DNA of 26,430 nt from positions 1 to 26,430 of the IMG/VR virus record IMGVR_UViG_3300017769_000105, one strand, 5' to 3'. Below the pieces are notes generated by a model. The model saw nothing but the letters and a program-made list of their open reading frames with translations. It was not told where the DNA came from and did not search any database. Positions 3 to 26,430 of the stretch are shown here, one piece after another. The stretch's first letter is position 1. Each line of letters begins with the position of its first letter. The translations under genes were made by a program, and so were the position numbers. The stretch comes from a virus.

Positions 3-143
3 GATCCTTTAGCAGTTAACTATAATGAATTTGCTTGTTTTGATGATAATTCATGTATAACAGCAGTTCCTGGTTGTACTGATGTTTCAGCTTACAATTA
101 TAATCCAGCAGCAAACGTTTCAGATTCAACAGCATGTTTATAT
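3..143 (+). repeat. Tandem GCTD-type protein repeats (two copies visible, first partial)
   Basis: In the translated frame, bases 3-59 encode the end of one repeat and 72-143 a complete one. Both share the pattern D-x-x-A-x-N-Y-N-x-x-A-x-x-x-D-x-x-x-C. More copies may lie upstream of the window. Confidence 0.7.
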
Positions 144-533
144 GATGCGGGATGTTATGGAGGACCAGGTATACCATACTGGTTAAATGATGGATGTTAT
201 GCTTGGGTAATTAGTGTAGATGATTATTGTTGTACTAATGATTGGGATCCTACATGTCAATCAATGTATGATTATTGTCAATTAGGATGGCCAACTTCTA
301 TACCTGACGTTTCAGCTTTGGGGATTGCTGTTTATCCAAATCCAACGCATGATGTATTAAGTATAGATACTAGATTAGATATTCAAATAGAAGTACATGA
401 TTTAATGGGTAAATTATTAATAAAGACCGAAAATGTTAATAGATTAGATTTATCTGATTTATCAAATGGGTTATATAATCTATCAATAATTCATGAAGAA
501 AAACGCTATAATAAACAGATAATTAAACAATAA
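3..533 (+). CDS. Cys-rich surface protein with T9SS type A C-terminal sorting domain (5' end missing)
   Basis: The reading frame is open from the left edge, so only the last 176 residues are visible; the ATG at 264 is internal. Two copies of a Cys-containing repeat come first: the tail of one (DPLAVNYN...DDNSC) and a full one (GCTDVSAYNYNPAANVSD...C). This GCTDxxAxNYNPxA repeat is typical of secreted proteins of marine Bacteroidetes. A second Cys-rich segment follows (DDYCCTNDWDPTCQSMYDYC, about residues 75-94). The last ~70 residues carry the hallmarks of a type A T9SS sorting domain: VYPNPTHDVLSID, a central VHDLMGKLL strand, LSDLSNGLYNL and a terminal KQIIKQ. In the host, such a domain directs export across the outer membrane by T9SS and usually surface attachment. 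Any N-terminal signal peptide lies outside the window. It shares strand, base composition and spacing with the phage genes downstream, so I infer it is phage-encoded. The passenger function is unknown. Confidence 0.88.
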   Translation, partial: DPLAVNYNEFACFDDNSCITAVPGCTDVSAYNYNPAANVSDSTACLYDAGCYGGPGIPYWLNDGCYAWVISVDDYCCTNDWDPTCQSMYDYCQLGWPTSIPDVSALGIAVYPNPTHDVLSIDTRLDIQIEVHDLMGKLLIKTENVNRLDLSDLSNGLYNLSIIHEEKRYNKQIIKQ

Positions 534-9859: not shown

Positions 9860-10267
9860 ATGCCATTAATTCAGGATATAAAAAGAATAAACCCATTAGA
9901 TCTTAACAATAATGCTAGGATTGGGGTTGCTTTTCCCTTGAATGATATAAATATGACATCTGGTACTTTAACAACTAAAGAACAATTAAAAGCTAATTTT
10001 TTAAATTTATTATTAACAGTACCTGGAGAAAGATTAAATCATCCTACTTATGGAATTGGCTTAAAAAGTCAATTATTTGAAAATAGTATAGATGAAATAA
10101 CATTACAAGAAAATATAAATGGTCAATTAGCATTTTGGATCCCAGAAATAACAGTAACTGATGCTTCTTTAAGACAAGATATAGATCAATATAGAGTTTC
10201 TCTTACATTAACATATTCTATTTCTTTAGACGAAGCAGAAGATTCAATACAAATAAATTATAGTTAA
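9860..10267 (+). CDS. 25: Baseplate wedge protein, GPW/gp25 family
   Basis: A 135-residue protein, close to the usual length of T4 gp25 (132). It carries the family core PGERLNHPTYGIGLKSQLFE (55-74), where the PGER...P.YG.GL pattern is diagnostic, preceded by the helix TKEQLKANFLNLLLT and followed by the final beta region (YRVSLTLTYSISL). Proteins of this family link the baseplate wedge to the sheath initiator at the tube end in contractile tails and related injection machines. It lies directly upstream of the gp6-like gene (1-nt gap), as in many contractile systems where gp25 and gp6/J-type genes are neighbours. Confidence 0.94.
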   Translation: MPLIQDIKRINPLDLNNNARIGVAFPLNDINMTSGTLTTKEQLKANFLNLLLTVPGERLNHPTYGIGLKSQLFENSIDEITLQENINGQLAFWIPEITVTDASLRQDIDQYRVSLTLTYSISLDEAEDSIQINYS

Positions 10268-10268
10268 A

Positions 10269-12161
10269 ATGGCTTATAGTAAAGTATCAAATAAAACACA
10301 AGATAAAGACGTAAAATATCTAAGTAAAGATTATAATTCTTTTAAAGATCAACTAATGGAATTTGCGGAAGTATATTTCCCAAATAACTTTAATGATTTT
10401 AGTGAAGGTAACCCTGGTATGATGTTTATGGAAATGGCAGCATATGTTGGTGATGTTTTATCTTACTACACAGATACACAATTAAGAGAATCTCTTTTAT
10501 TATTAGCCCAAGAAAAAGAAAATTTATTTAATTTAGCTTATGCTATGGGTTATAGACCTAAAGTAATAGAAGCCTCTAGTGTTGATTTAGAATTATTTCA
10601 TTTAATACCTTCAACGGGTGCTAGTGGCGATTATGGTCCAGATTTTAATTATGCTTTACAAATTAATCCTAATTCAACATTTAATTCTACTGAGGGTCCT
10701 ACTTTTTATATTAATAATGAAGTAGATTTCAAAGTATCTTCAAGTTTTGACCCTACAGAAATTAGTATATATCAATATGATAGTTCAAATAATCCAGAAT
10801 ATTATTTATTAAAGAAAAAAACAAAAGCAATATCTGGACAAGTTAAAGAACAAACTTTTACATGTGGTGCTGCCGAAGCATTTAAAACATTCACTTTATT
10901 TGATACTAATATTATATCAATAGAATCTATTACTGATTCAAATGGTAATGAATATTATGAAGTACCTTATTTGGCCCAAGATACAATTTTTCAACAAGTA
11001 GAAAATATAGGAACTAATGATCCTGAACTTTTAGGGCTTAATAACCAAACACCCTATTTACTTAAAATAATAAAATCATCAAGAAGATTTGTAGCTAGAT
11101 TTAAAGCCAATAATCAACTTGAAATCCAATTTGGAGCAGGTAATAGTGATAAAGCAGATGAACAAATTATCCCTAATCCAGATAATATAGGTTTAGGAAT
11201 TAAAGACGGAAGAAGTAAATTAGACACAGCTTATGATCCATCAAACTTTTTAATGACTAGAGCATATGGACAAGTACCTGCTAATACTACACTTACAGTA
11301 AAATATTTAGTAGGAGGAGGAATAACCTCAAATGTAAATGCAAATACAATTACAGAAGTAGATACATTACTTATTTCTAATAATCCTAATTTAAATGGAT
11401 CTTTACTTAATTTTGTAAAAACATCTGTAGCTGTAAATAATCCAGAGGCTGCTAAAGGTGGAGGTGATGGTGATTCAATAGAAGAAATTAGAGAAAATAC
11501 AATGGCTCAATTTGCTACTCAGCAAAGAACAGTAACTAAAGAAGACTATATTATAAGAACTTTAAGTATGCCTTCTAAATTTGGTAGAGTTGCTAAAGCA
11601 TATATAGTTCAAGATGATCAAATTTCTCCTTTATCTAATGAATTTAACAGAATTCGTAATCCTTTAGCTTTAAACTTATATACTTTAGGATATGATAATA
11701 ATAAAAAACTAACAAATCTTAATGTAGCTACAAAAACAAATCTTCAAACATATCTTGAACAATATAGAATGTTAACAGATGCTATTAATATTAAAAATGC
11801 ATTTGTTATTAATTTTGGTATTGATTTTGAAATTACAGTATTTAAAAATTATAATAATAATGAAATAATACTAAATTGTGTAGCTGAATTACAAGATTAT
11901 TTTAATATAGATAAATGGCAAATAAATCAACCTATTATAAAATCAGAAGTTGAAAATTTATTATCATCTATAGTAGGTGTTCAATCAGTAGAAAATTTAA
12001 CATTTATAAATAAAAGTGGAACAGCTTTAGGTTATTCGCAATACAAATATGATTTTGAAGGAGCTACAAGAAAAGGAGTAATATATCCTGCTTTAGATCC
12101 TAGTATATTTGAAATAAAAAACTTAAATACAGACATTAAAGGACGAGTAACAACATATTAA
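10269..12161 (+). CDS. 6: Baseplate wedge subunit, gp6/J-like
   Basis: A 630-residue protein, close in length to T4 gp6 (660). The N-terminal ~100 residues have the typical gp6 pattern: VKYLSKDYNSFKDQLMEFAE, NPGMMFMEMAAYVGDVLSYY and ENLFNLAYAMGYRPKVIEAS. The central region is beta-rich. A conserved segment near residues 413-450 (TQQRTVTKEDYIIRTLSMPS...FGRVAKAY) matches the baseplate J/gp6 family. The C-terminal part contains strands and helices ending in GRVTTY. gp6 proteins form the ring that holds baseplate wedges together. The gene starts 1 nt after gp25 and is followed 1 nt later by the next baseplate gene, so the block is probably transcribed and translated together. Confidence 0.9.
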   Translation: MAYSKVSNKTQDKDVKYLSKDYNSFKDQLMEFAEVYFPNNFNDFSEGNPGMMFMEMAAYVGDVLSYYTDTQLRESLLLLAQEKENLFNLAYAMGYRPKVIEASSVDLELFHLIPSTGASGDYGPDFNYALQINPNSTFNSTEGPTFYINNEVDFKVSSSFDPTEISIYQYDSSNNPEYYLLKKKTKAISGQVKEQTFTCGAAEAFKTFTLFDTNIISIESITDSNGNEYYEVPYLAQDTIFQQVENIGTNDPELLGLNNQTPYLLKIIKSSRRFVARFKANNQLEIQFGAGNSDKADEQIIPNPDNIGLGIKDGRSKLDTAYDPSNFLMTRAYGQVPANTTLTVKYLVGGGITSNVNANTITEVDTLLISNNPNLNGSLLNFVKTSVAVNNPEAAKGGGDGDSIEEIRENTMAQFATQQRTVTKEDYIIRTLSMPSKFGRVAKAYIVQDDQISPLSNEFNRIRNPLALNLYTLGYDNNKKLTNLNVATKTNLQTYLEQYRMLTDAINIKNAFVINFGIDFEITVFKNYNNNEIILNCVAELQDYFNIDKWQINQPIIKSEVENLLSSIVGVQSVENLTFINKSGTALGYSQYKYDFEGATRKGVIYPALDPSIFEIKNLNTDIKGRVTTY

Positions 12162-23586: not shown

Positions 23587-24012
23587 ATGTGGTATTTCTT
23601 AGACAAACAAATAGACGAAATTTCTGACCTTCCTGAAGGAGCATTCGGATTTATTTATCAAACAACTCACTTACCAACTGGAAAAAAATACATTGGTAAA
23701 AAATCTTTAATTTATAATTTAAAGAAAAAATTAGGTAAAAAAGAAAAAGCACTTTGGGAAGGAAAAGGACGACCTCCTATGTACAAACAAGTACAAAAAG
23801 AAAGCGATTGGAAAACTTACTATGGTTCACATTCTTTTATTAAAGAAGCAAACGATAAAGATTTAGAAAGAAAAATACTACAGGTGGCTTTTAATAAAAA
23901 AGAACTTACATACTTAGAATGCAAATGGCAATTTGTATTAGAGGTATTAGAAACTAATAAATATCTTAATGATAATATATTAGGTAAGTTTTACGATAGA
24001 GACTTTAAATGA
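23587..24012 (+). CDS. GIY-YIG nuclease-like protein (SegE type)
   Basis: A 141-residue protein. It has GFIY (21-24) and KYIGKK (34-39), the two halves of the GIY-YIG motif, then DWKTYYGS (74-81), LERKIL (93-98) with R95, and LTYLECKWQ (107-115) with E111, followed by NDN (128-130). This order (Tyr, Tyr, Arg, Glu, Asn) is that of GIY-YIG nucleases, and the WKTYYGS...YLE pattern resembles the SegE-type family of T4-like phages. Such enzymes are homing endonucleases or DNA-processing nucleases. It is not inserted inside another gene and overlaps the primase start by 4 nt (ATGA), so a resident role in DNA metabolism is as likely as mobility. Confidence 0.78.
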   Translation: MWYFLDKQIDEISDLPEGAFGFIYQTTHLPTGKKYIGKKSLIYNLKKKLGKKEKALWEGKGRPPMYKQVQKESDWKTYYGSHSFIKEANDKDLERKILQVAFNKKELTYLECKWQFVLEVLETNKYLNDNILGKFYDRDFK

Positions 24013-24932
24013 AAGAAGATTTATTAAAAAAATTATTAGAATCAGTTTTAGGTAGAAGTAAGTCAGCCCGTGGGGGTGGAGAAGCAGTATTTACTTGTCC
24101 TTCTTGTAACCATCATAAGAAAAAATTAACCCTAAATCTATCAACTCAAAAATTCCAATGTTGGGTTTGTGGTTATAAAGGACACAGAGCATTCAAACTA
24201 CTTAAAGCAGTAAGTGCATCACCAAAAGCATACGAACTTTTAAAAGACATTGACTCTCAATACAGTTTTAAAAAACAAACCACAGTCAAATTACCATCGG
24301 GTTCCTTGCAATTACCATCGGGAGTAACGCCTATAATGTCATCTTCAGCTATATTGTCGAAACACGCACTACATTATTTAAATCAAAGAGGAATCACTCC
24401 CCAAGACGTAGTTAAATATAATTTACATTACTGTGAACAAGGAGAATTAAGAAATATGGTTGTAATACCTTCATATGATAAAGATGGTTTTTTAAATTAT
24501 TATGTTGGTAGATCATTTGATAAAAACGCATATATTAAACATAAACTCGCTTCCAGTACTAAGGACATAATTGGGTTTGAAATGTATATAAACTGGGATT
24601 TACCCATTATTTTATGCGAAGGTGCGTTTGATGCAATGGCTATAAAACGTAACGCGATTCCTTTATTTGGTAAACGAATTTCTGATTCTTTAATGAAACA
24701 AATAATCGAATCAAATGTTGAAAAAATATATCTTGCTTTAGATGAAGACGCTCTTAAGGATGCTTTTAAACATGCTGAAACGTTTCTATCCTATGGAAAA
24801 AAGGTCTATCTTATAGAAATGGGTGATAAAGACCCATCTGAATTAGGTTTTGAAGCTTTTACAAAATTACTACATAAAGCAACAAAACTAACAGCTTCTA
24901 TATTAATGAAGAAAAAATTAGCCTTGTCATAG
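24009..24932 (+). CDS. DNA primase (gp61-like), zinc finger plus TOPRIM
   Basis: A 307-residue protein. A zinc-binding motif near the N-terminus has C30, C33 (CPSC) and C51, C54 (CWVC), typical of DnaG/gp61-type primases that recognise the template start site. A linker with a duplicated LPSG motif follows (24289-24322). Residues ~118-170 (HYLNQRGITPQDVVKYNLHY) are the primase N-terminal core. The TOPRIM domain has ILCEGAFDAMA (201-211, E204 and D208), LALDEDALKDA (242-252, the DxD-type motif) and GDKDPSEL (272-279). It makes RNA primers for lagging-strand synthesis. There is no helicase domain, so it should work with a separate helicase, as T4 gp61 does with gp41. Length is near that of T4 gp61 (342). 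Confidence 0.9.
   Translation: MKEDLLKKLLESVLGRSKSARGGGEAVFTCPSCNHHKKKLTLNLSTQKFQCWVCGYKGHRAFKLLKAVSASPKAYELLKDIDSQYSFKKQTTVKLPSGSLQLPSGVTPIMSSSAILSKHALHYLNQRGITPQDVVKYNLHYCEQGELRNMVVIPSYDKDGFLNYYVGRSFDKNAYIKHKLASSTKDIIGFEMYINWDLPIILCEGAFDAMAIKRNAIPLFGKRISDSLMKQIIESNVEKIYLALDEDALKDAFKHAETFLSYGKKVYLIEMGDKDPSELGFEAFTKLLHKATKLTASILMKKKLALS
24289..24322 (+). repeat. Short direct repeat in the primase linker
   Basis: AATTACCATCGGG occurs at 24289-24301 and again at 24310-24322, a 21-nt period that encodes two LPSG-containing heptads between the zinc finger and the core. The nearly exact nucleotide match suggests a recent small duplication. Confidence 0.6.
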
Positions 24933-24965: not shown

Positions 24966-26430
24966 ATGGAAAGAATCGCACTTTTACCTGGAGGATTCAA
25001 ACCTCCTCATGCTGGTCATTATAATATGGCTATATGGTTAGCACAAAATACTAACGCTAATACTGTAATTATAAAAGTAGGAGCTAAAGAGCGAGATGGT
25101 ATAACAAGAGAAATTTCTTTACAATTATGGGATTTATATAGAAAAAATGATCCCGATCCATTATCTCAAAAACTAACAATATTAGCTTCAAATTCAAATT
25201 CTCCGGTACAAGATGTATATGATTTTGTAGAAAAAGAAGCACCGGAAGAATCTACAATTTATTTAGGAATGGGTGAAAAAGACATAAATGACGCTCGTTT
25301 TAAAAATATCCCAAAATTTGCAGAACCAAAAGGAATTAAATTCGAAACAACTTTAGTACCACCCCAAGCAGGAGGTGTATCAGGTACTAAAATGAGAGAA
25401 TTTATTAAAAGTGGTGATAAAGAATCATTTCAAAAGTTTATTCCTGAATTTTTAACAGATGAACAAAAAGATAAAGCATGGGAATTAGTTTCATCATTAG
25501 AAGAATTAATGTATGGAACTATGACTAAGCAAGAAAAAGCTAAACATGCTAAAAATCTTAAACGTCTTAAAAAAGACATGTCTAAACAGGGAGATCAATA
25601 TATGGAAGTACCTAGCTACCTAAAAGGTACTTTAAAAAGAAAAATGTATGAAAGAGATCTTTCAGATAAAGAAGAAAGAATAGCTCAAAGTTTACCAGAC
25701 AAAGAATTTAAAAAACGTTATGGTAAAGATTGGAAGTCAGTTAAGATAGCAACAGCAACAAAAATGGCTAAAAAAGAAGGAATGTATCCACCTTATAAAG
25801 CAGACCAAGTACAAAAAGTAAGATACCAAGCAAGTGATACTTTTACTAATAGCCCCAAAGACGCTAAAAAAAGAGGTTACTTAGAAGGTGATACTTACGA
25901 AAAAATGGCTGCTAAAGGTAAGAAAAAAGGCAATTTAAAACAAGGCACAGTTAGAAAAAGATTAAAAATTAAAGACGGGGAAAAAATTCCTTTATCTAAA
26001 ATAAATAAAGCTATTTCAAAGATAAAGAAAATGAAAAACCCAAGTGAAAAAAATAAAAAATATCTTAAAGCATTAAATTTAGCTAAAACTTTAAAAACAA
26101 CAACACATAAAGAAAATATAGACCCTAAATCCCAAGCTAAACATAAAGGTAAAGCAGCCCCTTACGGTTCAGCTTATGAACCAGTTAATGAAGCTGATCC
26201 TAAAAAAGGAACAGGTAAAAAACCTAAAGGATCAGGAAGAAGATTATACACAGACGAAAATCCAAAAGACACAGTTAAGGTTAAATTTTCAACTAGACAA
26301 GACATAGTGGACACTTTAAATAAAAAATCATTTAAAAGTAAATCTCATAAACGTCAGTCTCAAGTTATAAATTTAATACACCAAAGAGTAAGAGCAGCTT
26401 TAAATAGAGCTAAAGATCCAGATGTTAAAA
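24966..26430 (+). CDS. HxGH nucleotidyltransferase fused to a long Lys-rich modular tail (3' end missing)
   Basis: The frame is open from this ATG to the right edge, giving 488 codons. Residues 1-~150 form a cytidylyl/adenylyltransferase-like domain: PGGFKPPHAGHYNMA (8-22) with the HxGH motif at H15-H18, and GVSGTKMREFI (137-147), equivalent to the ISSTxxR motif. This superfamily transfers nucleotides to small substrates such as NMN, phosphopantetheine or sugar phosphates; which one is not clear. From ~185 the protein becomes strongly basic with several distinct segments: EVPSYLKGTLKRKMYERDL (214-232), FKKRYGKDWKSVKIATATKM (248-267), a Lys-rich stretch (310-400) and PKGSGRRLYTDENPKD (420-435), with FKSKSHKRQSQVINLIHQRV (456-475) further on. 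Plain members of the enzyme family lack such a tail. It may bind DNA or place the enzyme in the virion; both are inference. Confidence 0.82.
   Translation, partial: MERIALLPGGFKPPHAGHYNMAIWLAQNTNANTVIIKVGAKERDGITREISLQLWDLYRKNDPDPLSQKLTILASNSNSPVQDVYDFVEKEAPEESTIYLGMGEKDINDARFKNIPKFAEPKGIKFETTLVPPQAGGVSGTKMREFIKSGDKESFQKFIPEFLTDEQKDKAWELVSSLEELMYGTMTKQEKAKHAKNLKRLKKDMSKQGDQYMEVPSYLKGTLKRKMYERDLSDKEERIAQSLPDKEFKKRYGKDWKSVKIATATKMAKKEGMYPPYKADQVQKVRYQASDTFTNSPKDAKKRGYLEGDTYEKMAAKGKKKGNLKQGTVRKRLKIKDGEKIPLSKINKAISKIKKMKNPSEKNKKYLKALNLAKTLKTTTHKENIDPKSQAKHKGKAAPYGSAYEPVNEADPKKGTGKKPKGSGRRLYTDENPKDTVKVKFSTRQDIVDTLNKKSFKSKSHKRQSQVINLIHQRVRAALNRAKDPDVK

Follow-up and report, generated by a model that had tools for sequence, protein, structure and literature searches.

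A phage gene for a putative T9SS-exported protein and its linkage to a predicted envelope module in uncultured marine phages

The window analyzed here, by which we mean the whole stretch of DNA, comprises the 26,430 bases of a virus contig from IMG/VR (IMGVR_UViG_3300017769_000105). Its first gene is an open reading frame at 3-533 on the plus strand, whose beginning is cut off by the left end of the contig; it encodes 176 amino acids up to a stop codon at 531-533, and its remainder lies beyond that end. From the ORF call and from homologues in 37 viral contigs, we assign it as the C-terminal 176 codons of a putative phage-encoded T9SS cargo protein. The visible portion contains the GCTD-type repeats that a first-pass annotation had reported, present as an incomplete unit at 3-56 and one full unit, GCTDVSAYNYNPAANVSDSTAC, at 72-137 (plus strand, by sequence and alignment). 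It continues on the same strand with a Cys-rich domain at 135-293 (GGPGIPYWLNDGCYAWVI..DDYCC..WD..C...YDYC), delimited by alignment and profile search and almost invariant across the cargo family, and with a T9SS type A sorting domain (CTD) at 330-524.

The stop codon is followed on the plus strand by an intergenic spacer of 50 nt (534-583), which holds an exact TTTATATTTAT box at 551-561, a candidate promoter for the transcription unit that follows, and then by a gene of cluster c9 (584-1429), whose place after the cargo is kept in close relatives; as a query, c9 found only five contigs. Two baseplate wedge genes (9860-12161, by PHROG matches) and a primase gene (24009-24932) lie further along on the plus strand, in agreement with the earlier statement that the surface protein gene stands 50 nt before phage genes of the same orientation. 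Judged by its two baseplate wedge genes, the window contig is that of a contractile-tailed phage. Boxes identical to TTTATATTTAT or differing from it by one mismatch occur in intergenic gaps at 551, 9393, 20123, and 24936 and are perhaps a phage promoter, their frequency over the whole window not being above chance. At the right end, the protein encoded at 24966-26429 starts with MERIALLPGGFKPPHAGH, which by eye resembles the nucleotidyltransferase HxGH motif, without a supporting Pfam match.

That the frame carries a type A sorting domain was confirmed by two profiles, both matching above their curated cut-offs. Residues 110-174 (nt 330-524) reach 46.5 bits against PF18962 (E 4.6e-12, cut-off 27) and 43 bits against TIGR04183 (E 3.4e-11, cut-off 23), and a separate search placed the PF18962 match at the same nucleotides with an E value of 2.8e-14. 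In an AlphaFold model of the window fragment, the CTD part has pLDDT values mostly between 84 and 92, and its fold search gave two matches at E<=1e-3, both with E about 1.5e-4, namely DUF3244 and, second, the NucA CTD bound in a T9SS complex (8glk_D, E 1.5e-4, TM 0.74 on the target), with the CTDs of mirolase, RemA, and FspA ranking next. Searched as a sequence profile against the PDB, the CTD found chains of NucA, FspA, RgpB, and mirolase. The domain is under purifying selection, with dN/dS values of 0.06-0.38 between close pairs. Of the 37 retrieved virus records, 36 contain a PF18962 match above the cut-off, one match each, so that CTD homologues do occur inside other phage genomes. Eight loci (L038, L095, L100, L102, L104, L118, L121, and L128) keep the Cys-rich domain and end in another C-terminus (..TDILGRPTK..LLLFIYSDGSVTKQLIKK), which is possibly another sorting signal; compared with the CTD, of which it might be a shortened form, it obtained an unconvincing hhalign probability of 2.4%, and similar endings may occur in flavobacterial proteins.

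A gene at a contig edge that carries a bacterial-type sorting domain could belong to the host and have come to stand beside phage genes through misassembly or because the contig spans a prophage boundary. Against such an origin, the scan of viral contigs yielded 37 cargo loci, with relatives 43-96% identical on contigs of up to 170 kb, several of them with the T4-like capsid protein Gp23, and the 533-584 junction recurs in ten other viral contigs from different metagenome datasets with similar spacing and a TTTATATTTAT box. Counting the window, 11 contigs share the succession of stop codon, spacer of about 50 nt with the box kept exactly or nearly, and next gene, and the conservation of the 534-583 spacer argues against a chimeric join. 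The PF00589 integrase was absent from all 27 large contigs searched, ten of which encode Gp23; in the lineages without Gp23, a PHROG scan of the large genes left the phage type unsettled. A chimera or prophage edge between 533 and 584, named earlier as a hazard, is ruled out by the conserved junction together with the lack of an integrase in these 27 contigs. One pattern, the Cys-rich/CTD alignment, was run against 84,980 genomes of bacteria and archaea and matched once, on a 3.8 kb contig from an archaeal MAG; being a single pattern scan without systematic coverage of Bacteroidota, it falls short of proof that cells lack the family. Searches for the cargo family in plasmids found none. The matching contig (L050, CALBOT010000064.1), binned into a Nitrosopelagicus MAG, encodes a cargo C-terminus and is probably a misbinned phage fragment. 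With the same junction in 11 contigs and the homologues inside viral contigs of up to 170 kb, we give the host-gene explanation practically no weight.

Since the window copy is truncated, the full-length features of the cargo come from homologues without an edge cut (64 unique). These proteins have 671-1413 amino acids, 5-24 GCxD repeats, and 5.3% Cys, and consist of a signal peptide followed in order by an N-terminal domain that varies, the GCxD repeats, the Cys-rich domain, and, in most, the CTD. All 64 begin with a signal-peptide-like N-terminus, as judged by a rule-based check rather than by SignalP. Some carry an N-terminal MAM domain (in L038, PF00629 with E 3e-24; the PDB matches are MAM-containing proteins), while the N-terminal domains of others are unnamed. 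Related phages differ in their cargo through exchange of this N-terminal domain. The first 150 amino acids of the cargos in L022 and L035 are 94% identical, whereas their C-termini and their copies of c1, a neighboring protein described below, are each 64% identical; conversely, L013 and L015 share 88% identity in c1 and 38% in the cargo N-terminus. These pairs show that the N-terminal domains move between phages.

Receptor-binding proteins typically have terminal domains that vary and can be exchanged, and tail genes are present in the window, so the cargo might be a tail fiber or adhesion protein of the virion in which signal peptide and CTD are kept by chance or for folding. This is improbable, given that a signal peptide is found in every uncut copy, that the linked partners carry signal peptides too, and that an exported copy would be outside the cytoplasm during virion assembly. 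On sequence evidence, the cargo is very probably a genuine phage-encoded protein exported through T9SS. Within it, the GCxD repeats and the Cys-rich part would form a constant stalk, and the exchangeable N-terminal domain would be the working head, which probably binds a ligand.

The cargo does not stand alone. At the retrieved loci it is accompanied on the same strand by genes for three proteins, c1 (about 360 amino acids), c2 (about 118), and c3 (about 94), and in L004 and L029, close relatives of the window, the order is c1-c3-c2 followed by the cargo. Going by these two relatives, we infer that the window's own c1, c3, and c2 lie beyond its left edge. The association was also examined in reverse, by a scan with c1; it found at least 556 viral stretches, and from the 80 best of these, 79 c1 loci were examined. 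A cargo gene was found within 2.8 kb in 68/79 of these loci, always on the same strand and at a median distance of -3 nt, with c2 present in 68/79 and c3 in 70/79. In the remaining 11, the contig ends less than 4 kb from c1 on one side; at L120, L124, and L125, the start of a cargo-like gene is visible at the contig cut beside c1. Signal-peptide-like starts, scored by one rule, were found in 24 of 27 cargos, 27 of 28 c1 proteins, and 22 of 27 c2 proteins vs 31 of 529 other ORFs.

Structure modeling of c1 gave moderate confidence (mean pLDDT 66.5), and among the 50 fold matches listed nearly all are outer-membrane beta-barrels, the best being NanC (E 1.1e-6), so that c1 is a predicted outer-membrane beta-barrel. 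It has no Pfam match, no meaningful NCBIfam or PHROG match, and no PDB match by sequence, and was not found among 50,697 phage records; an assignment of c1 to a known T9SS component or a named family was ruled out on this basis. Among the c1 proteins of L011-L038, a lipobox-like motif (e.g. LLASCAAPKKCC) occurs in 13/28 and an ordinary signal peptide in others. Meanwhile, c2 matches thioredoxins without their CGPC segment and is a predicted exported thioredoxin-fold protein with the active site missing, and c3 shows, by eye, a single hydrophobic segment and, after it, a stretch resembling a coiled coil.

These features can be combined into a mechanism in which the cargo is one part of a phage envelope module. 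Judging from the signal peptide of its full-length homologues, the cargo would cross the inner membrane by Sec, traverse the periplasm, and pass the outer membrane via the host's own T9SS by means of its C-terminal sorting domain. It would then be displayed on the surface of the infected cell, where proteins with a type A CTD are usually anchored after cleavage. Below it, c3 may sit in the inner membrane with its coiled coil in the periplasm, and c2 may be periplasmic, a thioredoxin fold devoid of active-site cysteines, while c1 would form a beta-barrel in the outer membrane, with the cargo outside. Use of the host T9SS is the natural reading since a phage gene under purifying selection encodes both a signal peptide and a CTD. 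The most likely benefit would be surface remodeling, in which receptors are masked from other phages and progeny are kept off cell debris.

The same arrangement could instead serve lysis, with c3 acting like an inner-membrane spanin, c1 as its outer-membrane partner, and the cargo weakening or coating the outer membrane before release. Such a role fits the topology of c3, as seen by eye, and the lipobox-like motif in 13/28 c1 proteins, and in several lineages a holin-like gene, c37 (phrog_3427, E 1.3e-31), and an endolysin-like gene, c7 (phrog_33083, E 5.3e-17), lie near the module. However, no holin-like or c7 gene was found beside the module in the window's lineage, a protein of 700-1400 amino acids with swappable MAM-type heads is not needed for lysis, and the predicted beta-barrel of c1 sets it apart from the known outer-membrane spanins. 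We consider a lysis function unlikely, though still worth keeping in mind. The heads themselves allow another role, as MAM-type domains, repeats, and 5.3% Cys resemble extracellular adhesins and the heads are swapped among phages. Infected cells would, on that account, stick to bacteria, algae, or particles, and progeny would be released beside new hosts; what an apparently virulent phage would gain from this inside a single infection is uncertain, and the adhesin account has, in our judgment, a rather small chance of being correct.

Returning to surface remodeling, we hold with moderate confidence that the cargo is exported and has some surface-modifying role, and put forward receptor masking as its purpose more tentatively, as a plausible proposal that falls short of even confidence. 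The linkage of a T9SS-labeled cargo with envelope genes suggests that a large group of uncultured marine phages may rebuild the outer surface of their host during infection. At its widest, the proposal is that such phages, in their hundreds, possess a system of four parts reaching through all layers of the host envelope, with an exchangeable binding head displayed by the host's T9SS; this would be an apparatus dedicated to remodeling the infected cell's surface and without a described counterpart, which we regard as possible but doubtful. If the cargo is exported, these phages invest in rebuilding the host surface via a host secretion machine, beyond making virions, and the exchange of N-terminal heads points to phages competing at the surface of the cell. 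Besides, the tight linkage of cargo, barrel, periplasmic protein, and coiled-coil protein provides a concrete gene set for tests.

Among cultured phages of flavobacterial hosts, the closest relative is Flavobacterium phage immuto, at 47.5% identity in the baseplate and 44% in the primase; Microcystis phage Mel-JY01 comes as near as immuto in the baseplate (48.6% identity). By a partly circular argument, which combines the sorting domain with the Flavobacterium host of this cultured relative immuto, the host is probably a T9SS-bearing member of the Bacteroidota. The immuto genome (NC_055915) contains one PF18962 gene, gp015 (YP_010114427.1), which like the cargo combines a signal peptide with a PF18962 CTD, but unlike it has a cohesin domain in place of the GCTD repeats and Cys-rich domain. 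Its neighbor gp013 combines a C-type lectin domain with a signal peptide. By eye, gp013 contains a dockerin-like stretch, and the two genes (NC_055915 10527-13422, L131) look like a surface display pair. An uncultured phage of 635 kb (LR745206) has one PF18962 match above the cut-off and one below. Searches run with a positive control did not find c1 in immuto or in LR745206, and PF18962 had no match in nine further annotated phages, namely Mel-JY01 and eight whose names refer to Bacteroidota hosts. With a T9SS cargo of its own, the cultured relative immuto opens the question to tests in a laboratory strain.

The first-pass annotation had presented the locus as a secretion-system hijack by a virus. 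This reading is partly supported, in that the phage gene is real and conserved, evolves under purifying selection, and carries the two signals needed for export; the idea of T9SS hijack had already been published. The roles suggested in that annotation, among them superinfection exclusion, adhesion, and release on lysis, are candidate functions. More informative is the linked envelope module, which lies outside what the annotation could see. A conserved envelope module with swapped heads in apparently virulent marine phages was not found described; our search for descriptions of the module covered the open-access literature, with subscription papers and preprints mostly outside it. Among cellular proteins, the T9SS substrates NucA, FspA, RemA, mirolase, and RgpB resemble the cargo in CTD profile and/or predicted fold, but they are cellular genes, whereas the cargo family is represented outside viruses, in the one pattern scan, by a single contig that looks misbinned. 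In function, a parallel may be Llp of phage T5, a superinfection-exclusion lipoprotein that sits in the host outer envelope and blocks receptors; the cargo would work alike, by a different export route.

Among phages, T9SS sorting domains occur in crAss-like cluster 2, one of them on a protein with BACON repeats (PMC6949934), which involves another repeat and another phage group, and the passages on these domains describe no linked envelope module. A close precedent is Cryophage, a 76 kb phage in which three different and variable cargo genes with T9SS CTDs, for an endoglucanase, a GH39 protein, and a PA14 protein, led to the proposal that the host system is hijacked (Bellas et al. 2020, PMC7468147), and superinfection exclusion was suggested for these cargos (PMC7468147). 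As here, the Cryophage proteins carry type A T9SS sorting domains and are highly variable between phage variants (PMC7468147). What sets the present family apart from Cryophage is a single homologous cargo per phage, linked to c1, c2, and c3 and spread over many marine contigs, T4-like ones included.
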